Part shown: one piece after another, positions 4,909 to 21,034 of the stretch
How positions within the stretch are numbered: the stretch's first letter is position 1
Layout: each line of letters opens with the position of its first letter
DNA from: Hyphomicrobiales bacterium
GTDB taxonomy: Bacteria; Pseudomonadota; Alphaproteobacteria; Rhizobiales; Beijerinckiaceae
Assembly: GCA_028290405.1 (NCBI GenBank)
Contig: JAQGJX010000174.1
Span: forward strand, 1 to 42,765
DNA length: 42,765 nt
Direction of reading: 5' to 3'
Notes under the pieces: model-generated
The model's database searches: none
Told to the model about the DNA's origin: nothing
Seen by the model: the letters and a program-made list of their open reading frames with translations, nothing else
Program-made: the position numbers and the translations under genes

Positions 4909-5499
4909 CTACTTCGACGCCGCGTAATGCGCGAGCGCCTCGAGGTCGGCGTCCGAGGCGCCGAAGATCACCGCCGTCATCTGCGTGTCGGCGCCCGCCC
5001 GCGCGTTGTCCCGGAAGGCTTTCATCGCATAGAGCATGTAGTCCACGCGCTGGCCGGCGAGGCGCGGCATCTGTTGCTGTCCCGTGAGCGCCGGCAGGTG
5101 GCACGAGGCGCAGCGAAGCCTTGTTGCGAGCGCGGCGCCGCGCGCCACGAGCGCCGGGTCGATCTTCTCGTCGGAGCGCACCGGCTTCAGCTTCGAGAAA
5201 TGGTCAGCCAGCGCGACAATCTCGTCGTCCTTCAACTCCTTCACGAACGACGACATGGCCTCCACGGGCCGCACCCCCTCGCGCATCAGGATGAGCTGGT
5301 TCATCACGAAGAAATCGGGCTGGCCGGCCAGCGAGGGAATGTTCTCCATCGCCGAATTGCCGCCTTCCCCATGACAGCCGGCGCAAACCGCCACGCGGTC
5401 GGCCAGCGGCATGGTCTGGGCGGCCAGAGGCGCTGCGAAAAGACCCGCGACCGCAAGCCCGAGGGCCAGCGGTCGCCATGATGCGATCTTCAGGATCAT
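4909..5499 (-). CDS. Exported dihaem cytochrome c (class I, c553/c4-like)
   Basis: A 196-residue periplasmic cytochrome c. An N-terminal signal peptide (residues 1 to about 27, ending PLAAQ) precedes two domains, each with a haem-binding CXXCH: C39-A-G-C42-H43 and C130-A-S-C133-H134. The two-haem c4-like layout suits it as electron acceptor for a periplasmic dehydrogenase. Its start codon lies four bases after the stop of the quinoprotein gene, so the two are almost certainly co-transcribed, and the cytochrome probably takes electrons from that enzyme towards a terminal oxidase. Confidence 0.93.
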   Translation of the reverse strand: MILKIASWRPLALGLAVAGLFAAPLAAQTMPLADRVAVCAGCHGEGGNSAMENIPSLAGQPDFFVMNQLILMREGVRPVEAMSSFVKELKDDEIVALADHFSKLKPVRSDEKIDPALVARGAALATRLRCASCHLPALTGQQQMPRLAGQRVDYMLYAMKAFRDNARAGADTQMTAVIFGASDADLEALAHYAASK

Positions 5500-5503
5500 T
5501 CGA

Positions 5504-6769
5504 TCAGTTCGCCAAGGCGACCTTGGGGGCCGCGTAGGTGATGCGGTAGACCGCGCCGTTCTGCTCGTCGGACACCAGGAGCGACCCGTCCTTCAACGGC
5601 AGCACGTAGGCCGGGCGCCCATGGAACTGGTTGGTCTTGGTGTCGAGCAGGCCGGTCAGGAACGGCTCGATTTTCGCCTTGCCGCCCTCGGTGCGCGCGA
5701 TCACGACGTCGTAGCCGAACTTCGCCTCGCGGTTCCACGAGCCATGGCGGGCGATGAACGCCACGTTCTGGTAGGTCTTGGGGAACATGGCGCCGGTGTA
5801 GAACTTGATGCCGAGGCTGGCGCCGTGCGGACCCAGCAGGGCAGCGGGCATGACCACGCCAACGCACGCGTTCGGCTTCTTCACGTCCGGATCGGGAACG
5901 CCGTTCGCGTGGCAATAGGGGAAGCCGTAGAACGCCCCCACCTGCGTCGACGTCACGCGGTTCAGTTCGTCCTCCGGGCCAGCGTTGCCCGCCCAGTCGC
6001 GGCCGTTGTCGGTGAACCACAGGTCCTTGGTCGCCGGATGCCAGTCGAAGCCGACCGTGTTGCGCACGCCGCGCGCCACGATCTCCATGCCGGTGCCGTC
6101 CGCGTTGTAGCGGCGGATCTGACCATGCACGCCGGGGTTGATCTCGCAGATGTTGCAGTTCGCGCCGACCTGCGAATACAGCTTCCCGTCCGGTCCGAAG
6201 GCCACGTACTTCCAATTATGGTGCACTTCGGACGGCAGGTTGAACGCCGCCGTCAGCTCCACGGGATCGCCCGGGTTGTCCAGCCTGGACTCGATGTTGT
6301 CGTAGCGCAGCACCTTGTTGATGGCGAAGACGTAGAGCGAGCCGTTGCGGAACGCGAGGCCGTTGGGCTGGGTGAGGCCCTGCAGCAGCACCTTCACCTC
6401 GCGCTTGCCGTCCTTCTCGGTCAGCGCGTAGACGCGGCCGATGGTGCGCGAGCCCATGAACATGGTGCCTTTTTCGCCCTGCACCATGGTGCGGCCGCCC
6501 GGGTGGCCGGAAGACCAGACCTCAGCCTTGAAGCCGACGGGCAGTTTGATCTTGTCGATCGGGAGTTTGTCGAGCGCGGTGCCGATGGGGGGCGTGGGAT
6601 GCGGCCTCAGTCCCGTGTCCTGCTTGCTGGCGGCGGGATCGGATTTGTCCATGGCGCTCAGGCCCGGGGGGCCGGCGGGCGCAGGCTGCTGCGCGGCCGC
6701 GCCGAAGGATGCAGAGATCAGCGCCACGGACGCCAGAAGACCGATATGCGAGAACCTGACGGTTTTCAT
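5504..6769 (-). CDS. PQQ-dependent sorbosone/sugar dehydrogenase-like quinoprotein
   Basis: A 421-residue exported protein of the soluble glucose/sorbosone dehydrogenase (GSDH) beta-propeller family. A signal peptide spans roughly residues 1-26 (ending GAAAQ). Diagnostic blocks include WSSGHPGGRTMV, the WFTDNGRDWAGN segment and the ARHGSWNR segment. Such enzymes use PQQ and Ca2+ to oxidise aldoses or other aldehydes and alcohols in the periplasm. The ATG at 6769 has GGGGGAG upstream and begins the signal peptide. It is followed after four bases by a dihaem cytochrome c, the expected electron acceptor. PQQ synthesis genes are not in the window, and the substrate is unknown. Confidence 0.9.
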   Translation of the reverse strand: MKTVRFSHIGLLASVALISASFGAAAQQPAPAGPPGLSAMDKSDPAASKQDTGLRPHPTPPIGTALDKLPIDKIKLPVGFKAEVWSSGHPGGRTMVQGEKGTMFMGSRTIGRVYALTEKDGKREVKVLLQGLTQPNGLAFRNGSLYVFAINKVLRYDNIESRLDNPGDPVELTAAFNLPSEVHHNWKYVAFGPDGKLYSQVGANCNICEINPGVHGQIRRYNADGTGMEIVARGVRNTVGFDWHPATKDLWFTDNGRDWAGNAGPEDELNRVTSTQVGAFYGFPYCHANGVPDPDVKKPNACVGVVMPAALLGPHGASLGIKFYTGAMFPKTYQNVAFIARHGSWNREAKFGYDVVIARTEGGKAKIEPFLTGLLDTKTNQFHGRPAYVLPLKDGSLLVSDEQNGAVYRITYAAPKVALAN

Positions 6770-6938
6770 GTTTGCTCCCCCCAATGCCCGGCGCGCATGT
6801 CGGCGCCAGTTGCAGAAGAGCATAACGCCAAGCCTGGAGGGGCGCAATCGAGCCGGCCGGGCCTAAAATGGTCCGCGAGCCTTGCTTGCGCGGCGCGCGC
6901 GACCCATCATCGGCGCACCCTTCTGCATTGAGGCGCAC

Positions 6939-7637
6939 ATGATCGACATTCATTTCTGGCCCACCCCCAACGGACACAAGATCACGATCTTCATGGAAGA
7001 GGCCGGGCTCGATTACCGCATTCTCCCGGTGAACATCGGCAAGGGCGAGCAGTTCAGGCCGGAGTTCCTGAAGATTGCGCCCAACAACCGCATGCCGGCC
7101 ATCGTGGACCACGATCCCAAGGACGGCGGCGAGCCGATCAGCGTGTTCGAATCAGGCGCGATCCTGCTCTATCTGGCCGACAAGACGGGGCGCTTCATCC
7201 CCGCGGACGTCCGGGGCCGCGTGAAGACGCTGGAATGGCTGTTCTGGCAGATGGGCGGCTTAGGGCCGATGGCGGGGCAGAACCACCATTTCTCGCAATA
7301 CGCGCCCGAGAAAATTCCCTACGCGATCGACCGCTACGTGAAGGAGACCAACCGGCTCTACGGGGTGCTGGACCGGCAGCTCGCGCAGAACGAATTCGTG
7401 GCGGGCGCCTACTCCATCGCCGACATGGCCTGCTATCCATGGACGGCGTCCTACGAGAAGCAGGGCCAGAAGCTGGAGGACTTCCCCCATCTCAAGCGCT
7501 GGTTCGAAGCGATGCGCGCGCGCCCGGCGGTGCAGACCGCCTACGCGAAGGGCGAGCCTTACCGGACCAACCCGAACATGACCGAGGAGGACAAGAAGGT
7601 GCTCTTCGGCCAGACCGCGCAGAGCGTAAAGCAGTAG
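6939..7637 (+). CDS. Glutathione S-transferase family protein (YghU/YfcG-like)
   Basis: A 232-residue cytoplasmic GST. The N-terminal thioredoxin-like domain contains TPNGHKITIFMEE, the pattern of the nu-class YghU/YfcG enzymes, in which Thr/Asn residues rather than a cysteine contact glutathione; the cis-proline region is NNRMPAIVD and the glutathione-gamma-Glu contact is in VFESGAILLYL. An all-helical C-terminal domain follows. Nu-class enzymes have disulfide-bond reductase and peroxide-handling activity, which would suit protection against oxygenase by-products. GAGGCGCAC precedes the chosen ATG. It is divergent from the quinoprotein-cytochrome operon. Confidence 0.9.
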   Translation: MIDIHFWPTPNGHKITIFMEEAGLDYRILPVNIGKGEQFRPEFLKIAPNNRMPAIVDHDPKDGGEPISVFESGAILLYLADKTGRFIPADVRGRVKTLEWLFWQMGGLGPMAGQNHHFSQYAPEKIPYAIDRYVKETNRLYGVLDRQLAQNEFVAGAYSIADMACYPWTASYEKQGQKLEDFPHLKRWFEAMRARPAVQTAYAKGEPYRTNPNMTEEDKKVLFGQTAQSVKQ

Positions 7638-7646
7638 TGCGTTTGA

Positions 7647-7673
7647 GCCCCGGACGCGCGGGCGCTCCGGGGC
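7647..7673. terminator. Bidirectional terminator-like hairpin
   Basis: A perfect 8-bp inverted repeat (GCCCCGGA / TCCGGGGC) with an 11-base loop lies between the convergent GST and chromate-transporter genes. No clear T-tract follows on either side, so termination in both directions is inferred from placement. Confidence 0.5.
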
Positions 7674-7706
7674 GCCTCTTCGCCGCAAAGCGAGCGACCC
7701 TGCGCC

Positions 7707-8255
7707 CTAATGCGCGCCGACGCCAAGCAGCCACGCCGCCTCGAACGCCAGCGCGCCCAGCGCCAGCAGCGCGAAGGGATGCAGGCTGCGGCGCCATGTG
7801 AGCGCGCCCGCGACTCCCAGAATCACCGCCGCGCTCAACGGGTCGCCGCCGGTGAGCTGGAACAGCGAAAGCACGCCGGCCATGATGAGGCCGGCCGCGA
7901 CCGGCCCGAGTCCCTGTTCGATCGCCATGACCCAGGGCTTGCCGCGATGGCGGCTCCACACCGCCCCGACCGCGTAGCAGAGCGCCGAGGACGGCAGGTA
8001 CAGCGCCACCATGGCGACGAGCGCCCCGGCCAGGCCCGCGACCTTCATGCCCACGAACGCGCCCAGAATGGAGCTGGGGCCCGGGATGAAGCGCGAGATG
8101 GCGAGCAGGTCGAGAAACTCCCGCGCCGTCACCCACCCATGCACGTCCACGACGTCGTGCTGCATGGGGGCGTAGATGGAGGTCGCGCCGCCGATGGAGG
8201 CGAGCGACAGGGGCGCCATGACGACGAAGAGGGAGAGCAGGTGATCGTCACGCAT
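7707..8255 (-). CDS. Short-chain chromate transporter (CHR) subunit, second gene
   Basis: A 182-residue hydrophobic membrane protein corresponding to one half of a classical ChrA. The CHR-domain signature appears as LASIGGATSIYAPMQHDVV and ISRFIPGPSSILGAFVGMK, followed by four or more hydrophobic helices. Its start overlaps the preceding chr gene by eight bases, so translation is probably coupled. Short-chain CHR proteins work as pairs whose halves insert with opposite topology and export chromate or a related oxyanion. It lies at the end of an operon that also carries oxygenase and SDR genes, so a different anionic substrate is possible. Confidence 0.88.
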   Translation of the reverse strand: MRDDHLLSLFVVMAPLSLASIGGATSIYAPMQHDVVDVHGWVTAREFLDLLAISRFIPGPSSILGAFVGMKVAGLAGALVAMVALYLPSSALCYAVGAVWSRHRGKPWVMAIEQGLGPVAAGLIMAGVLSLFQLTGGDPLSAAVILGVAGALTWRRSLHPFALLALGALAFEAAWLLGVGAH

Positions 8256-8841
8256 CCTGCCGCCCCTTGGCGCCGGGCGTCTTGACCCCGCCCCGGCCCA
8301 GCCAGGCGAGCAGGATGCTGATGGGGGTCGCGACGAGCACCACGGGGACGAGCGGCCACTTCAGCACGCCCACCGCCACGAACACGCCCGCCATGACGGC
8401 GATGGGCGCGGCGCCGCGGCAGGCGCTCGCCATCACCCCCACGCCCATGCGCAGGATCATTCCGATGGCGCCCGCCGCCGCCCCCGCCATGGCGGCGTGG
8501 ATGGCCGGCGCGCCCAGCACCGCCTTGTAGGTGAGCGAGGCCGCGAGCATGTAGAGGAACGGCCCGGTGAGCATCGCCACCACGGCGACCGCGGCGCCAG
8601 GCACGCCGCGCATGCGCTGCCCGACGTAGACCGCCATGTTTGTGGAGTTCACGCCCGGCAGCACCTGCGCCATCGCGAAGCCGGCGACGAAGTCCTCGTT
8701 GCGCATCCAGCCGCGCACGGTCACGACCTCGCGCTGGATCCACGGCATGAGCCCGCCGCCGAAACTGAACAGGCCGATCCAGAAAAACGTCTTGAACAGC
8801 GCCCGGTAGGTGACTACCGGAGGCGCGGCGGCGTCGCTCAC
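8248..8841 (-). CDS. Short-chain chromate transporter (CHR) subunit, first gene
   Basis: A 197-residue membrane protein, the N-terminal-type half of ChrA. The family motif FSFGGGLMPWIQREVV is near residue 23 and MAQVLPGVNSTNMAVYVGQR near residue 50, with several transmembrane segments after that. A GTG start at 8841 is chosen because it forms a GTGA overlap with the stop of the upstream SDR gene and directly precedes the homologous region; no ATG lies close. The eight-base overlap with the second CHR gene supports a stoichiometric two-subunit transporter. Both halves look intact, so this is a two-gene ChrA rather than a broken fusion. Confidence 0.86.
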   Translation of the reverse strand: MSDAAAPPVVTYRALFKTFFWIGLFSFGGGLMPWIQREVVTVRGWMRNEDFVAGFAMAQVLPGVNSTNMAVYVGQRMRGVPGAAVAVVAMLTGPFLYMLAASLTYKAVLGAPAIHAAMAGAAAGAIGMILRMGVGVMASACRGAAPIAVMAGVFVAVGVLKWPLVPVVLVATPISILLAWLGRGGVKTPGAKGRQDA

Positions 8842-9698
8842 GAGCGCGCCACGGAGCCGCGCGTCGGGGCGCCCGGCGAGGCGCCGGCGGCCAGATCCGG
8901 CCAGGCGGCGGGCGAGACGGCCCGCGCGAGGTTGTCGGCGACCGGCGCGTCCACGTCCCAGTAGCGCGCCACGATGCGCTTGCCGGTGAGGTCGGCGGAG
9001 GCGTCCGACGCCAGGTAGCAAACCGGCGCCGCCATGGCGTCCGGCTTCACGAGCTTGCTGCGGTCCACCGGCGCGTGCGCGGGAATCATCGCGGTGTCGG
9101 CGGCGCCGCCGGGAATGAGAACGTTGCAGGTGACGCCCGTGCCGGCGAGGTCCTCGGCCCAACTGGCGGAGGCCGCCTCCAGCGCCGCCTTCGCCTGCCC
9201 GTACGGCGTATTGCCCTCGCGCATCATGGTCGAGAAGCTGGTCGTCACGTTGACGATGCGGCCCCATTTCTGGGCGATCATGTGGGGCGCGGCGGCGTGC
9301 GCCAGCAGGAACGGCCCGCGCAGGTTCACGTCGTAGAGCAATTGCCACTTGTCGGGATCGACGTTCCAGAAGCGCACGAGATCGGTGAGGAAGTCCTGGC
9401 TGAACAGGACCATGTTCAGCCCGGCGCAATTCACCAGCACGTCGATTCGGCCGAACTGGGCCACCGCGTCGGCGACCGCCGCCTCGCAGTCGGCGCGCTC
9501 GCGAATGTCCGTGCGGCGGGCGACGATGCGGCCCGGGCCGCTGGCGTCGGCGGCCGTCTTTTGCGCGGACGCCAGATCGATGTCGCAGCCGAGCACGATG
9601 GCCCCCTGCCCTGCGAGGCCCAGCGCCATGGCGCGGCCAAGGCCCGCGCCGACGCCCGTCACGATGCAGATCCTACCCGCCGGTCCCGCGTCCGCCAT
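8838..9698 (-). CDS. Short-chain dehydrogenase/reductase (SDR)
   Basis: A 286-residue NAD(P)-dependent classical SDR. The cofactor motif TGVGAGLG is near residue 14, NCAG near residue 90, and the catalytic serine (VTTSFSTM) and Y-G-Q-A-K tetrad are present, so it should oxidise an alcohol or reduce a ketone. A C-terminal extension of about 30 residues rich in Ala/Pro is unusual. The ATG at 9698 has GGGAGGGG upstream. It follows the LLM monooxygenase gene after 56 bases containing a strong hairpin, and overlaps the chr gene by four. In context it could supply a ketone to the monooxygenase or oxidise the alcohol released by the hydrolase. Confidence 0.9.
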   Translation of the reverse strand: MADAGPAGRICIVTGVGAGLGRAMALGLAGQGAIVLGCDIDLASAQKTAADASGPGRIVARRTDIRERADCEAAVADAVAQFGRIDVLVNCAGLNMVLFSQDFLTDLVRFWNVDPDKWQLLYDVNLRGPFLLAHAAAPHMIAQKWGRIVNVTTSFSTMMREGNTPYGQAKAALEAASASWAEDLAGTGVTCNVLIPGGAADTAMIPAHAPVDRSKLVKPDAMAAPVCYLASDASADLTGKRIVARYWDVDAPVADNLARAVSPAAWPDLAAGASPGAPTRGSVARS

Positions 9699-9754: not shown

Positions 9755-10930
9755 TTATTCGGCTGCTACGCCCAGCGTCGCGGCTTCCTCGGCCCGCAGA
9801 GGCGCGATGACCTCCCGCGCGTAAAGCTCGATGTTCTTCTTGGTGAGGTCGGCGGGCAGCGTGGCGAACTGCAGCATGGAGATCACGGTGCCGAAGCCGA
9901 TCTCCTTCTGGAAGTGCTTCAGCTTGTCGCGCACCGTCTTGGGGCTGCCGCAGAGGAACATCCCGGCTTCCATCACCGCGTCGATGTCCTTCGCGCCGCC
10001 CGTCATCTGCGCCTTCGCGGCCATGACGCCCTGCATGGACTTCAGCGACAGATAGCCCGGCGGCAGCAGCATCTCGAGCGGCATGCGCAGGAACTTCTGG
10101 TAGAAGTTCTCGATGTGCGGCTTGGCCTCCCGGTAGGCGATCTCGTCTGTCTCGGCGACGTAGATGGGCGTCGCCCAGCCGAGGTTTTCCGGACCCGCCT
10201 CCCAGCCGTAATCGGCCGCCGTGTCCTTGTACTGCTTCATGTACTTCTTCAGCGCCGCGAGCGGCGAGAAGGTCTGGAGGTACGTGTAGCGGCGCGAGGG
10301 ATGGCTGGCCCACTCGATCGTTTCCGTCGAGCCCTGGGAGGGAATCCAGATCGGCGGATGCGGATTGTCCTGGTAGGGGCGCGGCCACAGGTTCACGTAG
10401 TCGAAATTGTAGTACTTGCCCTCGAAGGTCGAGGGGCCGGGCTGCGTCCATGCCTGCACGATGAGGTCATGGGCCTCGTGGAACTTGTCGTGCGAAAGCG
10501 CCGGATTGGAGTTCCACGAATAATATTCGGCGCCGATGCCGCGCACGAAGCCGGCGATGAGGCGCCCGCCGGTGACGTTGTCGAGAATGGCGTATTCCTC
10601 GGCCACGGTGATCGGGTTGTTGAGCAGCGGCAGCGCCCGGCCCAGCACGGCGATCTTCACGTTCTTGGTGCGGCGCGCGAGCATGCCGGCGAACACGCCG
10701 GGCTGCGGCATCAGGCCGTAGGCGTTGGAATGATGTTCGTTGACGCAGATCCCGTCGAAGCCGAGCGGGTCCGCCATCTCGAGTTCGTCAAGATAGCGAT
10801 TGTAGAGCGCATGGCCCTTCTTGGGATCGTAGTACGTGTTGGGCAGCGTGACCCACGAGGAATTGTACTTGTCCGGCGCGTCCAGATCGAGGTCCGCATA
10901 CGGCATCAGGTGGATGAAGAAGAATTTCAT
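9755..10930 (-). CDS. LLM-class flavin-dependent monooxygenase (copy A)
   Basis: A 391-residue bacterial-luciferase-like TIM-barrel monooxygenase that would use reduced FMN and O2. Family features are GFDGICVNEHHS near residue 57, ILDNVTGGRLIAGFVRG near residue 115 and WPRPYQDNPHPPIWI near residue 182. The start overlaps the stop of the hydrolase gene as ATGA. It is clearly homologous to the LLM at 12780-13997 (shared NEHHS, FEGKY, NLWPRP/NIWPRP and HPPIWI/HPPVWI blocks), and both occur directly after an alpha/beta hydrolase. Many such enzymes are type II Baeyer-Villiger or desulfonating monooxygenases. No flavin reductase gene is nearby, so FMNH2 must come from elsewhere. Confidence 0.9.
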   Translation of the reverse strand: MKFFFIHLMPYADLDLDAPDKYNSSWVTLPNTYYDPKKGHALYNRYLDELEMADPLGFDGICVNEHHSNAYGLMPQPGVFAGMLARRTKNVKIAVLGRALPLLNNPITVAEEYAILDNVTGGRLIAGFVRGIGAEYYSWNSNPALSHDKFHEAHDLIVQAWTQPGPSTFEGKYYNFDYVNLWPRPYQDNPHPPIWIPSQGSTETIEWASHPSRRYTYLQTFSPLAALKKYMKQYKDTAADYGWEAGPENLGWATPIYVAETDEIAYREAKPHIENFYQKFLRMPLEMLLPPGYLSLKSMQGVMAAKAQMTGGAKDIDAVMEAGMFLCGSPKTVRDKLKHFQKEIGFGTVISMLQFATLPADLTKKNIELYAREVIAPLRAEEAATLGVAAE

Positions 10931-11712
10931 GGGCGTACCCCTTCCGAAAAGGAGATGATCTCGGAGACGTAGTCATTGGTCTTCTCGACATGGGGCAGAT
11001 GCCCGCACTCTTCAAATACGCGCACCTTTGCGCCCGGGATCATCTGGGCGAAGTGGTCGGCGTAGTCGACCGGGATGATCTTGTCCTGGCGGCCCCAGAG
11101 AATCTGGGTGGGCGCCTTGATGCGGTGGATCCACTTTTCGAGATCGGGATCGTAGAGGCGCGGGCTCCAGCCAAGTTTCGCGGTGGCGAGCGCGTTCTTG
11201 AGCCCGATGTTGCGCTCCTCGACGCTCTGCTCCATGCCCAGGATGCGCTCGGCGATGGACTGGTCGTGGAAGAGGTTCCGGGTCAATTCCTCGGCGGGCC
11301 ACAGGAAGATGTTGGCCTTCGGCGTGCCCTTGATGCGCAGGCCGGCGGCCGCAACCAGCGTCAGGCTGCGAATGCGCGCGGGATCGCGCAGAGCCGTCTC
11401 GGCGGCGATCCAGCCGCCCAGAGACGTGCCGACCAGCGTGACGTCGCGCAGGCCGAGCTTTTCCATGAACGCCGCATAGAAGTGGCCGAGGTCCTTCACG
11501 GCGTCGAGCCATTCGGGCGTGTCGGAGCGACCGAAGCCCGGGTGCTCGGGGGCGATCACGTCGAATTTCTCGGCGAGCTTGTCCATGAAGGGCAGCCAGC
11601 GGCCGCCGCCGTTGGCGCCGTGCAGGAACAGCAACGGGGCGCCAGCGCCGCCGCGCACGATGTTAACCTGCGCGCCTTCGACAGTTTCGAAATATGTCCT
11701 CGACTCGGCCAT
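10927..11712 (-). CDS. Alpha/beta hydrolase (copy A)
   Basis: A 261-residue alpha/beta-fold hydrolase. The oxyanion-hole block LFLHGANGGG is near residue 28, the nucleophile S97 is in GTSLGG, and the acid and base are D210 (WGRQDKIIP) and H238 (ECGHLPH), so the triad is complete. The helical cap lies around residues 125-185. The ATG at 11712 has GGGAGGA about ten bases upstream; an in-frame ATG 24 bases earlier is possible. It is similar along its length to the hydrolase at 11956-12765 and, like it, is translated together with an LLM monooxygenase. The likely job is ester, lactone or C-C hydrolysis of the monooxygenase product or precursor. Confidence 0.92.
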   Translation of the reverse strand: MAESRTYFETVEGAQVNIVRGGAGAPLLFLHGANGGGRWLPFMDKLAEKFDVIAPEHPGFGRSDTPEWLDAVKDLGHFYAAFMEKLGLRDVTLVGTSLGGWIAAETALRDPARIRSLTLVAAAGLRIKGTPKANIFLWPAEELTRNLFHDQSIAERILGMEQSVEERNIGLKNALATAKLGWSPRLYDPDLEKWIHRIKAPTQILWGRQDKIIPVDYADHFAQMIPGAKVRVFEECGHLPHVEKTNDYVSEIISFSEGVRP

Positions 11713-11834
11713 GCGGCTTTCGTCCTCCCAGATCATCGCCAGATCGTTGGCCGGCGTCTCCGCCGGATTTTGTCCCCACAGCGTAACCGGCCAAAGGCTG
11801 GGTGCAAACCAGAAGCTGGGCGGCGTCTGCGGCG

Positions 11835-11864
11835 TTGACAGCATGCTTAGACGACGAAGATAAT
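11835..11864 (+). promoter_or_regulatory. Sigma-70-type promoter for hydrolase/LLM copy B operon
   Basis: TTGACA at 11835-11840 and GATAAT at 11859-11864 are separated by 18 bases, close to the sigma-70 consensus and unusual in such GC-rich surroundings. Transcription would start near 11871, giving a leader of about 85 bases before the hydrolase start. Confidence 0.62.
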
Positions 11865-11908
11865 GGCGCCAAGTGCGGCGCGCGCAGAACTTGGCGGCGT
11901 TGGCGCCA
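11864..11908. promoter_or_regulatory. Candidate operator: nested inverted repeats over the transcription start
   Basis: CGCCAAGT (11867-11874) and ACTTGGCG (11889-11896) form a perfect 8-bp inverted repeat with a 14-base spacer. Two copies of the palindrome TGGCGCCA (11864-11871 and 11901-11908) flank it, 37 bases apart. The element begins at the last base of the -10 box, the usual place for a repressor site. No regulator gene is next to it. Confidence 0.5.
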
Positions 11909-11955
11909 CAGCAAAAAACGACGCGGCTCCATGGCCGGCAGAGGAAGCGCATCAG

Positions 11956-12765
11956 ATGCAGACGGCAGAGGCGACCTCCCACGATTTCATCACGGTGGGC
12001 GGGTTCAGGCAGGAAATCCAAACCGTGGGCGCTGGCGCGCCCGTGCTCTTCCTCCACCCCGGCCGGGGCATGCGGGGCGCGGGCCCGTTCCTCGACGCGC
12101 TGGCGGCGGGCGCCCGCGTGGTCGCGCCGTCCCACCCGGGGTTCGACCGCTCCGAACTGCCGGACTGGATGAACACCGTCGAGGACCTCGCGTATCATTA
12201 CCTTGACGTGATCGACGCGCTGGACCTGCGCGACGTCACACTTGTGGGCTCCTCCTTCGGCGGCTGGATCGCCGCGTCGCTGGCCATCAAGGCGAGCCCG
12301 CGCATCGCGCGCCTCGTGCTGATCGACGCCGTGGGGGTGAAGGTCGGCGGGCGCGACGACCGAGACATCGTGGACATCTGGGCGCAGAAGAAGACTGCGC
12401 TCGACGCCCTGACGTTCCACGACCCCTCGCGGGGAGGCGTGGACTACGCCTCCATGTCCGACGAGGAGCTCACATCCATCGCGCGCAACGTGGAATCGGA
12501 GGCGTTGTTCGGCTGGTCGCCCTACATGCACGACCCCAAACTGCTGCGCCGCCTGCATCGCATCAGCGCGCCCACGCTGGTGCTGTGGGGCGCGTCGGAC
12601 GGCGTTGTGAAGCCCGATTACGGACGCGCCTACGCCAATGCCATCCCGGGCGCGCGCTTCGCGTTGATAGAGGCCGCGGGCCACCTGCCCCACATCGAAC
12701 AGCCGGACGCGACTGCGCGCGCCGTGCTCGATTTCATCTCCGCCACGCCCGTTCGCGGCGCCTGA
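11956..12765 (+). CDS. Alpha/beta hydrolase (copy B)
   Basis: A 269-residue alpha/beta hydrolase with a complete triad: S100 in GSSFGG, D215 in WGASDGVV and H243 in AAGHLPH. The oxyanion block is LFLHPGRG near residue 31. Blocks shared with copy A include RDVTLVG, GGWIAA, GWSP, PDY/VDY and GHLPH, showing paralogy. The ATG at 11956 is preferred over an earlier in-frame ATG because the family N-terminus begins here and GAGGAAG lies upstream. It is followed after 14 bases by LLM copy B. Its function is probably hydrolysis of the ester, lactone or diketone handled by its partner monooxygenase. Confidence 0.92.
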   Translation: MQTAEATSHDFITVGGFRQEIQTVGAGAPVLFLHPGRGMRGAGPFLDALAAGARVVAPSHPGFDRSELPDWMNTVEDLAYHYLDVIDALDLRDVTLVGSSFGGWIAASLAIKASPRIARLVLIDAVGVKVGGRDDRDIVDIWAQKKTALDALTFHDPSRGGVDYASMSDEELTSIARNVESEALFGWSPYMHDPKLLRRLHRISAPTLVLWGASDGVVKPDYGRAYANAIPGARFALIEAAGHLPHIEQPDATARAVLDFISATPVRGA

Positions 12766-12779
12766 TAGAGGTTTCCCAC

Positions 12780-13997
12780 ATGCGCGTTTTCCACTTCACC
12801 GAGCAGCCCTATCCCGATGCGTGGGATCCGAGCCTCGATTCCTACCGCATCGTGCTGCCCAACGGCGTCTGCGATCCCAAGGTCGCCGCAGACCTCTACC
12901 ATCGCTATCTGGACGAATGGATGCTGGCCGACGACCTCGGCCTCGACATCATGGTCAACGAGCACCATTCCACAGCCACCTGCATGACCGCGTCCTGCCA
13001 TGTGACGCTGTCGATTCTCTCGCGCATCACCAAGAAGGCGCGCCTGCTGGCGCTTGGCGTGCCGCTGGCCAACCGCGCCGATCCCCAGCGCATCGCCGAA
13101 GAACTGTCGATGATCGACGTGATCTCGCGCGGGCGGTTCGAGATGGGCTTCGTCAAGGGCGTGCCGTACGAGCCGCCCGTGTCGAACCAGAACCCGGTGA
13201 ACATGATGGAGCGCCTGTGGGAATCCCACGACTTCATCCTGAAGGCGATGACCACGCACACCGGGCCGTTCAACTTCGAGGGCAAGTACTTTCACTATCG
13301 CAACGTGAACATCTGGCCCCGCCCCTGGCAGCAGCCGCATCCGCCCGTGTGGATCACCGCCTCCAGCCTCTCCAGCGCCAAGGAAGTGGCGCGGCGCGGC
13401 CACGTGCTGGCGACCTTCCTGCAGGGCTACAAGACCCGCCAGTTGTTCGACCTCTACCGGGAGCATTACCGCGCCGCCCATGGCGTCGAGCCTGGCCCGG
13501 ATCGCTTCGGATACCTGGCGCTCTGCGCGGTGGGCAACACCCGCAAGGAAGCCTTCGCGCGCGCGGCGGAGGTGGGCCGCTACGTAACGACGACGTCGAT
13601 CGTGCACGAACCCTTCCGCAACCCGCCCGGCTACATGCCGGTGTCCGACTACACGCGCGTGCTGCGCAACACCGGCAAGATGGTGCCCCGCATGGTGCCC
13701 ACCTACGACGGGCGCATGATCGACGTGAACCGGCCGCTGAGCGTGCAGGAGAACATCGACCTTGGCCTCATGTTCTGCGGCACGCCCGACGAGGTGTACC
13801 AGCAGATCGTGTCCTTCGAGAGCTACGCGGGCGGCATCGGCAACATGCTGCTCATGATGCAGGGCGGTGCGCTGAGCCATGAGGAGACCTGCGACAGCCT
13901 CACGCTGTTCGGCAAGGAAGTGCTGCCGCGCCTGAAGGAATATGCCAAGATGCGTGGGCAGACCCTTGCGCCGCAGGCGCTTGGCGCGGCCGAATAA
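12780..13997 (+). CDS. LLM-class flavin-dependent monooxygenase (copy B)
   Basis: A 405-residue luciferase-like flavin monooxygenase, paralogous to copy A. It has LGLDIMVNEHHST near residue 58, MIDVISRGRFEMGFVKG near residue 111 and NIWPRPWQQPHPPVWI near residue 178. AGAGG lies eight bases before the ATG. Compared with copy A the C-terminal third is more divergent, with an insertion around YDGRMIDVNRPLS, so substrate range probably differs. It sits between the hydrolase gene (14 bases upstream) and an exported binding protein (37 bases downstream), suggesting an uptake-oxidation-hydrolysis operon. A type II Baeyer-Villiger role is inferred only from family and neighbours. Confidence 0.9.
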   Translation: MRVFHFTEQPYPDAWDPSLDSYRIVLPNGVCDPKVAADLYHRYLDEWMLADDLGLDIMVNEHHSTATCMTASCHVTLSILSRITKKARLLALGVPLANRADPQRIAEELSMIDVISRGRFEMGFVKGVPYEPPVSNQNPVNMMERLWESHDFILKAMTTHTGPFNFEGKYFHYRNVNIWPRPWQQPHPPVWITASSLSSAKEVARRGHVLATFLQGYKTRQLFDLYREHYRAAHGVEPGPDRFGYLALCAVGNTRKEAFARAAEVGRYVTTTSIVHEPFRNPPGYMPVSDYTRVLRNTGKMVPRMVPTYDGRMIDVNRPLSVQENIDLGLMFCGTPDEVYQQIVSFESYAGGIGNMLLMMQGGALSHEETCDSLTLFGKEVLPRLKEYAKMRGQTLAPQALGAAE

Positions 13998-14034: not shown

Positions 14035-15063
14035 ATGCTCGCGAAACTCGCGACGATCGCGCTGGTGGCGTTCGGCCTGTCGAACGCCGCGACCGCGCAG
14101 ACGCAGACGGTGAAGATCGGCCTGACGGTGACGGCGACCGACATCGGCCTGTTCGTCGCGCAGAAGCGCGGCTACTTCAAGGACGAGGGGCTGAACGTCG
14201 ACTTCAACGTGTTCGACTCGGCGGCGCGCATGATGGCGCCGTTCGCCGCGGGCGATCTTGACGTTTCGGCGGGCGCGCCGTCGGCCGGGTTTTTCAACGC
14301 GGTCGGGCGCGGAATCGACATGCGCATCGTCGCCGACAAGGTGTCGACGCCCGCCGGGCGCCCCAGCCAGACGCTGGTGGTGCGCAAGGAATTGTTCGAT
14401 TCGGGCAAGGTGAAGACCCTAGCGGACCTCAAGGGCCTCAAGATCGCCAACACGGCGCCTGGCACAGCCGCATGGGGCACCATGTACCGCATGCTCGAAA
14501 AGGGCGGCCTCAAGATCTCCGACGTGGACCTGGTGGCCCTGAGCTTCCCGCAGCAGATCGTGGCGCTGATCAACGGCGCGGTGGACGCGGCGCTTCCGGC
14601 CGAACCCATGACGACGGAAGCCGTGTCCAAAGGCTATGCGGTGAAACTCGTGACCGACGACGAGGTTTATCCCGGGCACCAGATCGCCACGATCTTCTAT
14701 TCGGGCAAGTTCGCCAAGGAGCGCCCGGACGCGGCGCGCAAGTTCCTCAAGGCCTTCATTCGCGGCGTGCGCGACCACAACGACGCGCTGGACGAGAAGG
14801 GCATGTTCCAGGGCGAGAAGGGCGAGGCGATCATCGCCATCCTCAACGAATACACCAGCGTGAAGGACCCGGCGTTCTATCGCGGCTTCCCGCTCGCCTA
14901 CTGCAACCCGGACGGCGCGCTGAACGTGGAAAGCATCAAGGCCGACTACGCGGCGTTCAAGACCGCAGGCATGATCCAGAACGACGTCGATCCGGCGAAA
15001 GCCGTCGACACCTCGTTCCTCGACGCCGTGCTGAAAGAGCTTGGGCCTTACAAAAAGAAGTAG
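14035..15063 (+). CDS. NMT1/SsuA-type ABC transporter substrate-binding protein
   Basis: A 342-residue exported protein of the NMT1/THI5-like periplasmic binding family (nitrate/sulfonate/taurine/pyrimidine-type ligands). The signal peptide (residues 1 to about 22, ending ATAQ) is followed by KIGLTVTATDIGLFVAQKRGYFKDEGL, whose second half is the family N-lobe hallmark, and by LADLKGLKIANTAPGTAAW near residue 130. GGGAGGGG precedes the ATG. It follows the LLM-B gene closely and is probably in its operon. The ATPase and permease that such a protein needs are not encoded nearby, so it must share a distant transporter or act as an orphan receptor. Confidence 0.9.
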   Translation: MLAKLATIALVAFGLSNAATAQTQTVKIGLTVTATDIGLFVAQKRGYFKDEGLNVDFNVFDSAARMMAPFAAGDLDVSAGAPSAGFFNAVGRGIDMRIVADKVSTPAGRPSQTLVVRKELFDSGKVKTLADLKGLKIANTAPGTAAWGTMYRMLEKGGLKISDVDLVALSFPQQIVALINGAVDAALPAEPMTTEAVSKGYAVKLVTDDEVYPGHQIATIFYSGKFAKERPDAARKFLKAFIRGVRDHNDALDEKGMFQGEKGEAIIAILNEYTSVKDPAFYRGFPLAYCNPDGALNVESIKADYAAFKTAGMIQNDVDPAKAVDTSFLDAVLKELGPYKKK

Positions 15064-15164: not shown

Positions 15165-16187
15165 ATGCTTCTGCCAACGACCATCGTGGGTTCTTATCCG
15201 CAGCCCGACTGGCTGATCGACCGCGCGAAGCTGGGCATGCGCGCGCCGCCGCGCGTGCGCGCGAAAGAGTTATGGCGCGTGGACGCCGACTGGCTGGAGC
15301 AGGCGCAGGACGACGCGACTCTGCTGGCCATCCGCGACCAGGAGAGCGCCGGCGTCGACATCGTCACTGACGGCGAGATGCGCCGCGAGAGCTATTCTAA
15401 CCGCTTCGCGACCGCGCTCGAGGGCATCGACATCGACAACCCCGCGCAAGTTCTGAGCCGCGGCGGCAAGCCCGACCTCGTGCCCAGGGTGATCGGCCCG
15501 CTGCGCCGCAAGCACGCCGTGGAGGTGCGCGACGTGGCGTTCCTGCGCCGCAACACGGACCGCAAGATCAAGATCACCGTGCCGGGGCCGTTCACCATGT
15601 CGGCGCAGGCGAAGGACTTCCATTACGGCGACGACGCCGCCATGGCGATGGCCTATGCGGCCTGCGTGAACGAGGAGATCAAGGACCTGTTCGCCGCCGG
15701 GGCCGACATCGTGCAGATCGACGAGCCCTACATGCAGGCGCGGCCCGACCAGGCGCGCGAATATGGCGTGGACGCGATCAACCGCGCCGTGGAGGGCGTG
15801 AGCGGGGAAACCATCGTGCATCTGTGCTTTGGTTATGCGGCGCTCGTGAAGCAGAAGCCGGCGGGCTATTCGTTCCTGCCGGAGCTGGAGCGCTGCAACG
15901 TGAGCCAGGTATCCATCGAAACCGCGCAACCCGCGCTGGATTTCGCCGTGCTGGAGCAATTGCCGTCCAAGAAGCTGGTCATCGGGGTGATCGACCTCAA
16001 TGACCTTGCCGTCGAGACGCCCGAACTCGTGGCTGAGCGCATCGAGCGCGTCTATCCGCACGTGCCGCCCGGCCGCATCGTGGTGGCGCCGGACTGCGGC
16101 ATGAAATACCTGCCTCGCGATATCGCCTACGGCAAGCTGCGCGCCATGGTGGACGGCGCAAGGCTCGCCCGCGCGAAGCTGGGATAG
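15165..16187 (+). CDS. Stand-alone MetE C-terminal-type zinc methyl/alkyl-transferase
   Basis: A 340-residue protein matching only the catalytic C-terminal barrel of cobalamin-independent methionine synthase (COG0620). The zinc site is visible as H219-L-C221, E252 (SIET) and C311 (PDCGMK), and IDEP is at 185-188. Full MetE proteins are about 750 residues with a second N-terminal barrel for folate; here that half is absent by design, since the protein starts with the barrel's VGSYPQP motif after a strong AAGGGGGG site. The same zinc fold serves epoxyalkane:coenzyme M transferase, so thiol alkyl transfer or demethylation of a catabolic intermediate is an alternative to methionine synthesis. The acceptor thiol is unknown. 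Confidence 0.85.
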   Translation: MLLPTTIVGSYPQPDWLIDRAKLGMRAPPRVRAKELWRVDADWLEQAQDDATLLAIRDQESAGVDIVTDGEMRRESYSNRFATALEGIDIDNPAQVLSRGGKPDLVPRVIGPLRRKHAVEVRDVAFLRRNTDRKIKITVPGPFTMSAQAKDFHYGDDAAMAMAYAACVNEEIKDLFAAGADIVQIDEPYMQARPDQAREYGVDAINRAVEGVSGETIVHLCFGYAALVKQKPAGYSFLPELERCNVSQVSIETAQPALDFAVLEQLPSKKLVIGVIDLNDLAVETPELVAERIERVYPHVPPGRIVVAPDCGMKYLPRDIAYGKLRAMVDGARLARAKLG

Positions 16188-17469: not shown

Positions 17470-18672
17470 TTACGCCAGTTGAACGACCTCGCCCGCCTTG
17501 GTGCGGCCCTGCGCGCGGTATTGCCCGATGCGCTCGACCAGCGGCGCGTCGCTCATGGTGTAGAGCACGGCGTCCTTCGACGACGTGTTGAGATGGCGCC
17601 GCCACAGGAAGTTGGGCACCACGAAGATGTCGTTCTCCTGCCAGTCGAACGTCTCGCCCGCGACCTCCGTCTGGCCCCTGCCCTGCATCACCACGAACAC
17701 CGTGCTGGCGGTTTCGCGCTTGTGCAGCGTCTCCTCGCCGGCGCGGATCATCTGCGCGCCGTAGCCGATGGTGGGGAACAGCGGCCCGCCGTTGGCGGGG
17801 TTCACCATGGCGAGCGGCACGCCCTCATAGGGGTCGCCCGCCTCTCCCCGCAGGCCGTCCAGCGCCGCGCGCACGTCCGCGCCGCGGTAATGGATATAAG
17901 GCGAGGTGGAATGGCTGATGCCGCGCGCATGGCGCACGAAGGTCGGGATGAGCCCGCCCCGGCTGTAGAGCGCCTGGGAATAGCCCTCCGGCACGCTGGC
18001 CGCCTGCATGCGGTGGTTTCCGGTGGCGCCCGGCATGTCCTCGTCGAGCCAGATGAGGTCAAGGAACTCAAGCACCGGCCAGTCGAGGGTGTCGATCCAC
18101 GTCACGGGCGCCGCGCCGTCGTTGCCGTGGTCGTGCCACGTGCCGTTGGGCGTCAGGATGACGTCGCCGCGCGCGGCCGGGCAGCGCTCGCCCTCCACAT
18201 TGGTGTAGCCGCCATGTTCCGACAGGATGGTGCGGCTGGCGTTGGGGCTGTGCAGATGGGCCGGGGCCACGTCGCCGGGATTGTAGATCGACACCGCGCA
18301 ACGCAGGGCCGCGGCGATCTGCAGGCGCCCTCCGAGGCCCGGGTTGGTGAGCAGGAATTGCTGCCGGTCGGCGAACTCGATGGGCGGCACGTCGGCGCTT
18401 GAGGCGATGCCGGCGATCTTGTCGAGATAGGGCGAAATTTCGCGCCACTTCCAGTGGTGCGCCTTCGCCTTCATCTGCGCGGCCGCGACCCGGCCGGCGG
18501 CCATGGCGCCGGCGGTCCCCAGCCCCGTCTCCTTGAACCAGGGGCGCTGCGCGGGCGCGTTGGCCTGCGTGCGCAGCCAGATGTTGAGATGGGCGGCTTC
18601 GACGTTGAGGGCTTCCATCGCCTCGCGGGCGCCGGACGCCAGAGGGGCCTTTGCGTGTGCTGCCTGGTTCAT
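17470..18672 (-). CDS. Gentisate/salicylate 1,2-dioxygenase-like bicupin
   Basis: A 400-residue two-cupin protein of the gentisate 1,2-dioxygenase / 1-hydroxy-2-naphthoate dioxygenase family, which opens mono- or dihydroxylated aromatic acids next to the carboxylate with Fe(II) and O2. Iron ligands are probably H139-x-H141 (PAHLHSPNAS) and H180 (NGTWHDHGN). The second cupin covers about residues 300-370 (FVVMQGRGQTEVAGE). It is longer than the usual 340-370 residues, with an extra N-terminal segment, and lacks the usual HRH pattern, so substrate may differ from gentisate. The upstream gene is an FAH-family hydrolase 12 bases away, matching fumarylpyruvate hydrolase in gentisate pathways. Confidence 0.85.
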   Translation of the reverse strand: MNQAAHAKAPLASGAREAMEALNVEAAHLNIWLRTQANAPAQRPWFKETGLGTAGAMAAGRVAAAQMKAKAHHWKWREISPYLDKIAGIASSADVPPIEFADRQQFLLTNPGLGGRLQIAAALRCAVSIYNPGDVAPAHLHSPNASRTILSEHGGYTNVEGERCPAARGDVILTPNGTWHDHGNDGAAPVTWIDTLDWPVLEFLDLIWLDEDMPGATGNHRMQAASVPEGYSQALYSRGGLIPTFVRHARGISHSTSPYIHYRGADVRAALDGLRGEAGDPYEGVPLAMVNPANGGPLFPTIGYGAQMIRAGEETLHKRETASTVFVVMQGRGQTEVAGETFDWQENDIFVVPNFLWRRHLNTSSKDAVLYTMSDAPLVERIGQYRAQGRTKAGEVVQLA

Positions 18673-18684
18673 TGGGGCTCTCCC

Positions 18685-19542
18685 TCAGACGGTTTCGTCG
18701 GCGACGACGTTGCGCAGCACGCCCACCCCCTGCACCTCGATCTCCAGCACGTCCCCGGCGCGCAGCCACTTGGGGGGATCGAACCGCACGCCCGCGCCCG
18801 TGGGGGTGCCGGTGGCGATCACGTCGCCGGGCTCCAGCGTCGTGAAAGTGGAAATGTAGGCGATCAACTGCTCGAACGGGAAGATCATGCTGGCCGTCGT
18901 GTCGTCCTGCCGCACTTCTCCGTTCACCCGCGTGGTGATGCGCATGTTGTGCGGGTCGGCGATCTCGTCAGGCGTCGCCACCCAGGGGCCGAAGGAGCCG
19001 GAGGCTTCGAAATTCTTGCCCGCCGTCACGTTGTAGACGCCGTGCTTCATCCAGTCGCGCACGGAGCCTTCGTTGAAGCAGGAATAGCCGGCCACGTAGG
19101 CCAGCGCCTTGTCGGGGGAAATGCGGCGGCCGCGCGCGCCGATCAGGATGGCGATCTCGCCCTCGTAGTCGAATTCCACGGATTCGGGCGGGCGCATCAG
19201 GTTCCCGTTGTGGCCCGTCTGGGCCGAGGGCGTGCGGTAGAAGAGGCTTGGCCATTTGGGGGCGCCGACGTCGTGCTCGCCAGGGCGCGAGGTATAATTG
19301 ATGCCCACGCAGAGGATCTTGCCGGGGCGCACCACCGGCGGCAGGAACCGCACGGCGTCGAACGCGATCTCGGGCTTGGCCTGCGCGGCCAGCTTGACGG
19401 CGTCCTCGCGCGCCACGCCGCAGAGCGCATCCACGAGGCTGTTGGCGCGGCCCGCCAGGCGCGAGCCAAGGTCGAACAGGCCTCCGTCGAGCGCGAGCCC
19501 GAAGCTCTCCCGGCCTTCGTGAACATAGCTGGCGAGTTTCAT
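18685..19542 (-). CDS. Fumarylacetoacetate hydrolase-family protein
   Basis: A 285-residue FAH-family enzyme. The metal-binding core is visible as the FDYEGEIAILIGARGR block and GYSCFNEGSVRDW; IFPFEQLIAYIS and DVIATGTPTGAG complete the fold. Members hydrolyse fumarylpyruvate, acylpyruvates or fumarylacetoacetate, or act as 2-hydroxypentadienoate hydratases or decarboxylases. Placement as first gene of an operon with a gentisate-dioxygenase-like bicupin favours maleyl/fumarylpyruvate hydrolysis. No maleylpyruvate isomerase is directly linked, although two GST-family genes are elsewhere in the window. Divergent from the Rieske dioxygenase operon over 224 bases. Confidence 0.9.
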   Translation of the reverse strand: MKLASYVHEGRESFGLALDGGLFDLGSRLAGRANSLVDALCGVAREDAVKLAAQAKPEIAFDAVRFLPPVVRPGKILCVGINYTSRPGEHDVGAPKWPSLFYRTPSAQTGHNGNLMRPPESVEFDYEGEIAILIGARGRRISPDKALAYVAGYSCFNEGSVRDWMKHGVYNVTAGKNFEASGSFGPWVATPDEIADPHNMRITTRVNGEVRQDDTTASMIFPFEQLIAYISTFTTLEPGDVIATGTPTGAGVRFDPPKWLRAGDVLEIEVQGVGVLRNVVADETV

Positions 19543-19766: not shown

Positions 19767-21029
19767 ATGACGGACCACCTGACGGCGCAAGCCCACGAGA
19801 CCCCGCTGCCGAACTGGCCGGAGGGCCTGACCCGCGTGCCCTACTGGGCGTTCCAGCGCGAGGACGTTTACGGGGCCGAGCAGGAGCGAATCTTCCAGGG
19901 CCCCGCCTGGCATTACCTCTGCCTTGAGGCCGACGTTCCCAACGCCGGCGATTACCGCACCACGTTCGTGGGCGACGCCTCCGTGGTCGTGACGCGGGAC
20001 GCCGATGGCGCCGTCAACGCCTTCGAGAACCGCTGCGCGCACCGCGGCGCGCTGATCTGCCTCGACGAGAAAGGCCACGGCAAGAAGGATTTCGCCTGCG
20101 TCTACCACGCCTGGACCTATGACCTGAAAGGCAACCTCACGGGCGTCGCCTTCCAGAAGGGCGTCAAGGGCAAGGGCGGCATGCCGCCGACCTTCAGGAT
20201 GTCCGACCATGGCCCGCGCCAGTTGCGCGTCGCCACCCTGCACGGGCTGGTGTTCGGCACGTTCGCCCATGACGGGCCGGCGCTGGACGACTACCTGGGC
20301 GAGGAAATCCACAGCCGCATCACGCGCGTACTCAAGGACCGCAAGCCCGTCGTGCTGTCGCGCTACACGCAGGCGCTTCCCAACAACTGGAAGCTCTACA
20401 TCGAGAACGTGAAAGACAGCTACCACGCCAGCATCCTGCACCTGTTCTTCACGACGTTCGAGCTGAACCGCCTGTCCCAGAAGGGCGCGATCATCGTGGA
20501 CGAGAGCGGCGGGCACCACGTCAGCTATTCAGCCATCGACCGCAAGGGCAAGACCTCCAGCGAAGATTACGCGCAGCAGAAGATCCGCTCCGAGAGCGGC
20601 TATCGGCTCGCCGACCCCTCCATGCTGCAAGGGTTCGACGAGTTCGGCGACGACGTGACGCTGCAAATCCTCACTGTGTTTCCGACCTTCGTGCTCCAGC
20701 AGATCCAGAACGCCATCGCGATCCGGCAGATCACGCCGCGCTCGCCGACCGAGACGGACCTGCACTGGACCATCCTGGGGTTCGAGACGGACACGCCCGA
20801 GGAGCGCCTCGTGCGCCTGAAGCAGGCCAACCTCGTGGGGCCGGCGGGCTTCATCTCCATGGAGGACGGGTGCGTGGGCGGTTTCGTGCAGCGCGGCGTC
20901 GCGGGCGCGCCCCGGGAGGCGTCCGTGGTCGAAATGGGCGGGCATGACGCCGAGAGCAGCGAAAGCCGCGTGACGGAGGCCTCCATCCGCGGCTTCTGGA
21001 AGGCGTGGCGCGCCCATATGGGGCTGTGA
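19767..21029 (+). CDS. Rieske ring-hydroxylating dioxygenase, alpha subunit
   Basis: A 420-residue catalytic subunit of an aromatic-ring-hydroxylating oxygenase. The Rieske [2Fe-2S] ligands are C90-x-H92 (CAHRGA) and C111-x-x-H114 (CVYHAW). The mononuclear iron site is in [13 protein letters not shown], with H220 and H225 and the bridging D217; a third acidic ligand is probably in [10 protein letters not shown] near the C-terminus. The sequence style is that of oxygenases for carboxylated aromatics (salicylate 5-hydroxylase NagG, anthranilate AndAc, terephthalate TphA2). The beta subunit follows six bases later. Ferredoxin and reductase genes are not nearby. Confidence 0.93.
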
Positions 21030-21034
21030 GGAAC

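Follow-up and report, generated by a model that had tools for sequence, protein, structure and literature searches.

The described system closest in logic to the genes examined here is the hap cluster of the 4-hydroxyacetophenone pathway in Pseudomonas fluorescens ACB, which is reported to convert a ketone to an ester and then to hydroquinone, the substrate of a ring-cleaving dioxygenase (PMC3727088). We compared this and other systems with a four-gene block carried on a 42,765-nucleotide stretch of DNA (hereafter the window) from a Hyphomicrobiales bacterium (GenBank assembly GCA_028290405.1, contig JAQGJX010000174.1, positions 1 to 42,765), which corresponds to contig C218 of a 4.07-Mb assembly labelled G000 in this study. 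The block encodes two luciferase-like monooxygenases (LLMs) dependent on flavin mononucleotide (FMN), called LLM A and LLM B, each paired with a serine alpha/beta-hydrolase (HydA or HydB). We propose, with a probability of roughly 0.55, that these pairs are two members of a widespread module family in which the LLM oxygenates its substrate, probably by a Baeyer-Villiger reaction, to an ester or lactone that its partner hydrolase then cleaves. The hap pathway differs in that it uses another kind of Baeyer-Villiger flavoenzyme, of class B.

Several systems that involve LLMs share parts of this logic. In the pdc progesterone cluster of Caenibius tardaugens, the LLM EGO55_13860 was shown to carry out a Baeyer-Villiger oxidation that yields testosterone acetate, and thus resembles the proposed modules in that its ester product has still to undergo hydrolysis. 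This likeness is one of function, and it is limited by the acetate hydrolase being unknown, with none named in the pdc cluster in the accessible portion of the report (PMC12239570). Diketocamphane monooxygenases are likewise two-component FMN oxygenases of the luciferase family, and the 3,6-diketocamphane enzyme ranks with the structures closest in fold to LLM A. However, identity is only about 20%, and LLM B has no match to this enzyme at an expectation value (E) of 1e-5. According to a review, lactone hydrolase activity could not be detected in camphor-grown cells, which fits with the lactones being unstable (PMC6352141). SAR202 Chloroflexota carry many FMNO/LLM paralogs per genome, which have been proposed to open recalcitrant rings in a step that is either spontaneous or driven by an esterase or lactonase (PMC5395668, PMC6946804). 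These organisms belong to a different phylum, and the accessible portions of those reports describe no fixed LLM-hydrolase gene pair. A limited literature search, mostly of titles and abstract openings, revealed no description of a fixed module of an LLM and an alpha/beta-hydrolase among the matches listed.

Linkage and co-divergence of the hydrolase and LLM genes

An initial annotation of the window placed a hydrolase followed by an LLM in both directions from one control region, and the four open reading frames, their strands and their coordinates were confirmed. On the minus strand, HydA (10927-11736; 269 amino acids, although its start may be at 11712) overlaps by 4 bp with LLM A (9755-10930; 391 amino acids). 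On the plus strand, HydB (11956-12765; 269 amino acids) is separated by 14 bp from LLM B (12780-13997; 405 amino acids). The two pairs diverge from a 219-bp gap between HydA and HydB (11737-11955). Both LLMs match Bac_luciferase over most of the model (PF00296; 143.5 bits for LLM A and 114.9 bits for LLM B, with a cut-off of 27.9), and both hydrolases match Abhydrolase_1/6 (PF00561; 118.1 bits for HydA and 86.6 bits for HydB).

Relatives of these LLMs were collected as 165 distinct segments (77 A-type, 72 B-type and 16 C-type), which include the window genes and do not represent independent genomes; two L140 rows that repeat the related genome G001 were left out of the counts. In 66 of the 77 A rows and 61 of the 72 B rows (127/149 in total), the LLM gene is immediately preceded by a hydrolase gene on the same strand. 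Of the other A and B rows, 18 have no such gene although their upstream DNA extends for at least 900 bp, and four have too little DNA to judge. Among C-type rows, the hydrolase gene is upstream in 5/16 and downstream in 9/16. When only the genus set is considered, 87 of 105 A and B rows have the hydrolase, 15 do not, and three are untestable. The genes of a pair are closely packed: in 135 modules, 53 pairs overlap, 59 are separated by 0-30 bp, 22 by 31-100 bp, and one by a longer distance, such that an overlap or a gap of at most 30 bp is seen in 112/135.

The two genes also diverge together. Distances among LLMs and among their partner hydrolases agree with Mantel r values of 0.723 (A, n=40), 0.894 (B, n=41) and 0.864 (all 81), and no equally high value was obtained in 5000 permutations for any of these sets, which mix paralogs with orthologs and retain shared species history. 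The nearest neighbour is the same for the LLM and the hydrolase in 58 of 81 pairs. These findings provide good support for a true and old two-gene unit, with A and B clades, that has diversified as a unit. Both pairs in the window belong to the module family proposed here, in that the hydrolase gene is located 5' of an A or B LLM gene on the same strand and co-diverges with it. This part of the initial annotation, that hydrolase and LLM form a unit, therefore stands.

Modules of this type are also present in other Alphaproteobacterial families, in one Gammaproteobacteria metagenome-assembled genome (MAG; L152) and in Rhodococcus opacus PD630. Matches at E 1e-60 were found in 46/385 genomes of the class for LLM A and in 18/385 for LLM B, with the source genome counted in both cases and weaker C-type sequences also counted for LLM A. 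As many as 16 HydA-like hydrolase matches occur in a single genome (G013) of this uncultured Hyphomicrobiales genus. Plasmid-borne modules are carried by Neorhizobium petrolearium, Pukyongiella litopenaei and R. opacus PD630. The N. petrolearium plasmid cluster (L197, 7206-13683) has two LLM-hydrolase pairs, in the second of which the hydrolase gene is downstream of the LLM gene, along with genes for a short-chain dehydrogenase/reductase (SDR), a GntR regulator and, between the two pairs, a PF03358 FMN reductase. Plasmid p4 of P. litopenaei (L198, 1-19173) has a B-type module with a PF01613 flavin reductase, hydantoinase A/B and a peptide-type ATP-binding cassette (ABC) transporter; this module lies between Tn3 transposase genes and is possibly mobile.

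Assembly of the head-to-head block

In the initial annotation, the layout was explained by a single hydrolase-LLM unit that was duplicated, with one copy inverted and the copies later diverging. The identical gene order of the two units and the family motifs common to them are in agreement with such a history, and the unit was probably duplicated at some point in the remote past. However, LLM A and LLM B are just 31% identical and HydA and HydB 40%, whereas identity to the nearest relative at other loci is far higher (86% for LLM A, 83% for LLM B, 74% for HydA and 68% for HydB). Quick trees were built from a sample of the best matches in the 37 genus genomes, with 110 LLMs (50 A, 55 B and 5 C, after two of 112 rows were dropped for an internal stop) and 81 hydrolases (after six of 87 partners were dropped for a stop in the matched stretch). 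In both, A and B form separate groups with support of 99-100 in the Shimodaira-Hasegawa-like approximate likelihood ratio test (SH-aLRT). Larger sampling with 63-row trees that take in other families of the class gave an imperfect A/B split, as some C-type rows disrupt the clades and a single hydrolase of type A (L166) is placed among C rows. In these trees, the constraint that the window's A and B genes are sisters was rejected by the approximately unbiased (AU) test for the LLMs (p=1.31e-9) and for the hydrolases (p=1.8e-59). Thus, the sister relationship predicted by the annotation gives way to distant clades in both trees.

Other signs of a local event were similarly lacking. The mirror image holds for gene order but not for DNA, as no ungapped inverted match longer than one of 78 nt, with 73% identity, was reported within the block. 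The sequence blocks shared by the two units (NEHHS, WPRP and others), which had been taken to reflect duplication at this site, are family-wide: NEHH is present in 163/165 relatives, and WPRP in 67/77 A, 64/72 B and 6/16 C rows. These motifs were therefore rejected as a sign of one specific duplication. In addition, genomes G022, G024 and G031 have the A locus without a B pair. We conclude that local duplication and inversion is refuted by the trees, with which the identities and synteny agree, and we consider it to have almost no remaining likelihood.

Across 37 genomes of the genus (G000-G036), close LLM B orthologues (at least 70% identity) are present in three (G000, G001 and G030), and the four-gene block, which the annotation had suggested be sought in relatives, is present in G000 and G001. 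The latter is the closest relative with this region (contig C78), and its gene layout is that of record JAIXSM010000039.1, from a pond Hyphomicrobiales MAG. In G030, the B pair (73% and 62% identity) follows an aminotransferase gene in unrelated surroundings, and the A gene sits at one end of a separate contig. Because several of these genomes are incomplete, absence of the block is weak evidence. A divergent hydrolase gene within 700 bp was observed for 4 of the 108 module sides with at least 700 bp before the hydrolase, and these four are both sides of both blocks; the sides are those of the fetched loci, such that further head-to-head pairs are possible outside them.

The same neighbourhood in G022, G024 and G031 is informative on how the block arose. 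These genomes have an orthologous A pair together with genes for an SsuA-like protein, TctC, a gentisate-dioxygenase-like cupin and a Rieske dioxygenase, and have no B pair between HydA and the SsuA-like gene. Rather, a MarR gene occupies this interval in both G024 and G022, accompanied in G022 by two other genes, and a tripartite ATP-independent periplasmic (TRAP) transporter occupies it in G031. In the window, the SsuA/NMT1-like ABC substrate-binding protein gene lies 3' of LLM B (14035-15063, plus strand; PF13379, and TIGR01728 at 108.9 bits, below the cut-off of 163.5). Its product has an 80% identical orthologue in G001, and genes near HydA in G022, G024 and G031 are 68-71% identical. Because the A pair and the transporter gene are present at the corresponding locus of these three genomes whereas the B pair is missing, the simplest and most likely history is that the B pair was inserted between the A module and the transporter gene in an ancestor of G000 and G001. 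Alternatively, the B pair may have been lost in the other lineages. The block is thus an assembly of two old modules beside an aromatic-degradation cluster, conserved in one relative.

Arrival of the B module beside the A module would have set the two head to head and given them a common control region. No regulator gene was called in the 219-bp gap, in contrast to the MarR gene in the corresponding interval of G022 and G024. The gap contains the promoter-like element TTGACA-N18-GATAAT (11835-11864, plus strand), which matches the consensus at 11 of 12 positions, points toward HydB-LLM B and is kept in G001 (TTGACA...CTTAGGCGACGAAGATAATG). A search allowing at most three mismatches in 37 genomes (23 from the genus, G000-G022, and 14 from the order) found this pattern in two genomes, G000 and G001, each time in the HydA-HydB gap, and a reversed control gave none. 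This consensus match makes the element a candidate promoter. An Erken lake MAG contig (L139; LLM A 86%) starts 129 bases before the HydA match and, by eye, carries TTGACG-N17-GATAAT with a TTAGGCGA core pointing away from HydA, which a scripted count scores at nine mismatches from the exact-spacing pattern. This degenerate element suggests that there might be a third block.

Candidate chemistry of the modules

A model of LLM A (AlphaFold mean predicted local distance difference test (pLDDT) score 90.8) has the luciferase-like fold. Its closest match is RslO1 (7bip, template modelling (TM) scores 0.71/0.84), with luciferases (1luc_A, 0.72/0.85) and 3,6-diketocamphane monooxygenase (4uwm, 0.71/0.76) nearly as close. 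All are at about 20% identity, and such fold matches do not choose between chemistries. RslO1, from rishirilide biosynthesis, is also the closest solved relative by sequence for both LLMs, although it is described as an epoxidase and acts in the formation of an antibiotic (PMC8093152, PMC11354265). A reading of 7bip as RslO9 and as a lead toward Baeyer-Villiger chemistry was wrong, since the entry is RslO1 and RslO9 is not an LLM. Named NCBIfam LLM subfamilies (SsuD, SfnG, NtaA, Atu2307 and others) were rejected for both proteins, with best scores of 76.3 bits against a cut-off of 479.1 for LLM A and 71 against 462.25 for LLM B. Scores of both LLMs stay below 50 bits with the two models for alkanesulfonate monooxygenases, and neither protein has a match to RutA at E 0.001.

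The hydrolases were annotated as having complete catalytic triads, and Ser, Asp and His are visible in both (GTSLGG/GSSFGG, GRQD/GASD and GHLPH). The HydA model (pLDDT 95.1) has the alpha/beta-hydrolase fold and is closest to a phospholipase, meta-cleavage-product hydrolases, a polyhydroxybutyrate depolymerase and esterases. For HydB, the best NCBIfam models are 3-oxoadipate enol-lactonases, at about 101 bits and far under their cut-off. Three specific identities were considered and rejected for HydA and HydB, respectively: PcaD (93.9 and 100.7 bits; equivalog cut-off 255.85), HsaD (96.5 and 57.5 bits; cut-off 400) and BphD (68.8 and 55.6 bits; cut-off 462.15). Residues were counted in 130 partner hydrolases, after 11 of 141 were dropped for a stop in the matched stretch. 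The nucleophile is Ser in 109, Gly in nine, Cys in seven, Ala in four and Asp in one; the acid is Asp in 125 and the base His in 129. Epoxide hydrolases and dehalogenases use an Asp nucleophile. The Ser nucleophile fits hydrolysis of an ester, a lactone or a C-C bond, and speaks against chemistry of the epoxide hydrolase or dehalogenase type. In fourteen of the 130 partners, the Ser is replaced by Gly, Ala or Asp and the His is retained; five of these (L073, L094, L123, L133 and L135) make up one whole A subclade, and are perhaps inactive or changed partners for which linkage has been retained.

We propose that a separate NAD(P)H:FMN reductase, encoded elsewhere, would deliver reduced FMN (FMNH2) to the LLM, which would form a flavin peroxide and place oxygen beside a ketone, possibly an aromatic or alicyclic one. 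The partner hydrolase would then split the resulting ester or lactone via its Ser-His-Asp triad, and the products would enter ordinary catabolism. That the LLM inserts oxygen and hydrolysis follows is probable in our judgement, and we give the oxygenation an even chance of being of the Baeyer-Villiger type, for which the LLM of progesterone degradation is a precedent. The suggestion in the initial annotation that the two copies act on successive intermediates found neither support nor contradiction in this analysis. An SDR gene follows LLM A in the window (8838-9698, minus strand; PF00106), and an orthologue (70-74%) adjoins LLM A in three relatives (G003:C72, G013:C51 and G030:C159), whereas G001, G022, G024 and G031 lack a match of this kind next to LLM A. 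SDR-like genes are present in 13/51 larger module loci, compared to 1/13 LLM loci without a hydrolase. A cassette of SDR, LLM and hydrolase would convert an alcohol to a ketone, the ketone to an ester, and the ester to products.

Several observations weigh against this proposal. No flavin reductase gene was called beside the four-gene block, although two PF01613 genes are present elsewhere in the source genome. Homologues of the PF03358 type were detected in four of the 51 larger module loci, and homologues of the PF01613 type in none. Twenty-one of the 130 partner hydrolases lack a Ser nucleophile, and by sequence, as well as by the HydA fold, the hydrolases are as close to C-C bond hydrolases as to esterases. 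The description of RslO1 as an epoxidase and the species history retained in the Mantel tests also count on this side, and we know of no assay of any module member. Furthermore, AndAc-like Rieske genes are present in 5/51 module loci and 2/13 hydrolase-free LLM loci. Because four of these five are the same cluster in relatives, a general tie of the modules to Rieske dioxygenases is unsupported.

Some of these points favour a different oxygen chemistry for the LLM, such as epoxidation, hydroxylation or C-S/C-N cleavage, after which the hydrolase would attack a C-C, amide or lactam bond of the product. RslO1 is consistent with this, as are the proximity of the hydrolases, in sequence and fold, to the C-C hydrolases CumD, HsaD and BphD, the hydantoinase and flavin reductase genes that accompany the Pukyongiella plasmid module, and the SsuA-like binding protein gene adjoining LLM B. 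However, the Ser nucleophile speaks against an epoxide hydrolase, and the low alkanesulfonate monooxygenase scores and the missing RutA match also count against this explanation. We regard it as less likely than Baeyer-Villiger oxidation followed by hydrolysis, and as the strongest rival to that reading. The steps might also run in reverse, with the hydrolase first releasing the substrate from an ester linkage and the LLM oxygenating it afterwards. The leading position of the hydrolase gene in A and B modules and the esterases among the close folds of HydA agree with this order, but because the hydrolase gene is second in most C-type modules, gene order is not bound to the order of steps, and we consider the reversed sequence improbable.

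In favour of the proposed scheme, an FMN reductase gene follows the LLM gene in some modules. A PF03358 homologue has this position in L033, L109, L121 and L138, and another module in the source genome (L069, G000:C177, 4455-9985) would bring most of the proposed components together. It comprises a hydrolase gene (5466-6236), an LLM gene (6249-7445), a PF03358 NADPH-dependent FMN reductase gene (7539-8105) and then Rieske subunit genes, and is a natural candidate for biochemical work.

Flanking genes and meaning for the LLM family

Beyond the SsuA-like gene, the window carries an aromatic cluster. A gentisate 1,2-dioxygenase-like cupin (17470-18672, minus strand; TIGR02272, 226 bits, below the cut-off of 442) is followed by an FAA-hydrolase family protein (18685-19542, minus strand; PF01557) and by an AndAc/AndAd-like Rieske ring-hydroxylating dioxygenase (19767-21535, plus strand), whose large (19767-21029; NF041684, 442 bits) and small (21005-21535; NF041685, 134 bits) subunits both score below cut-off. 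This Rieske/gentisate-type cluster makes an aromatic ketone a possible substrate, and the products of the block could enter this pathway. An open reading frame after the Rieske genes (21145-22503) has a PdxA-family domain and possibly encodes a TphB-like dihydrodiol dehydrogenase. A MetE-like (Pfam Meth_synt_2) gene (15165-16187, plus strand) sits between the SsuA-like and TctC genes, with no counterpart at that place in G001. A third LLM gene (28620-29738) has SfnG as its nearest model (179.7 bits, below the cut-off of 382.95) and adjoins genes for a glutathione S-transferase and a PBP-family protein.

The module family is a more interesting object than the block itself. Its members are probably used for degrading stubborn ring or chain compounds. 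More tentatively, and with somewhat less than even odds, the module could be a transferable cartridge for oxygenation and hydrolysis that diversified as one unit into many specificities and was inserted piecewise into catabolic clusters. If so, the family would parallel the LLM expansion in SAR202, but with every oxygenase accompanied by a ring-opening partner of its own, and the head-to-head block would represent a pair of such cartridges under one control region. LLMs are numerous, with 34 Bac_luciferase matches in the 4.07-Mb source genome, and their substrates are mostly unknown. A fixed and co-diverging hydrolase partner narrows the chemistry of an LLM because the product should be hydrolysable. 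If the proposed chemistry is correct, many orphan LLMs of aquatic and soil bacteria would become assignable by way of their partner hydrolases.

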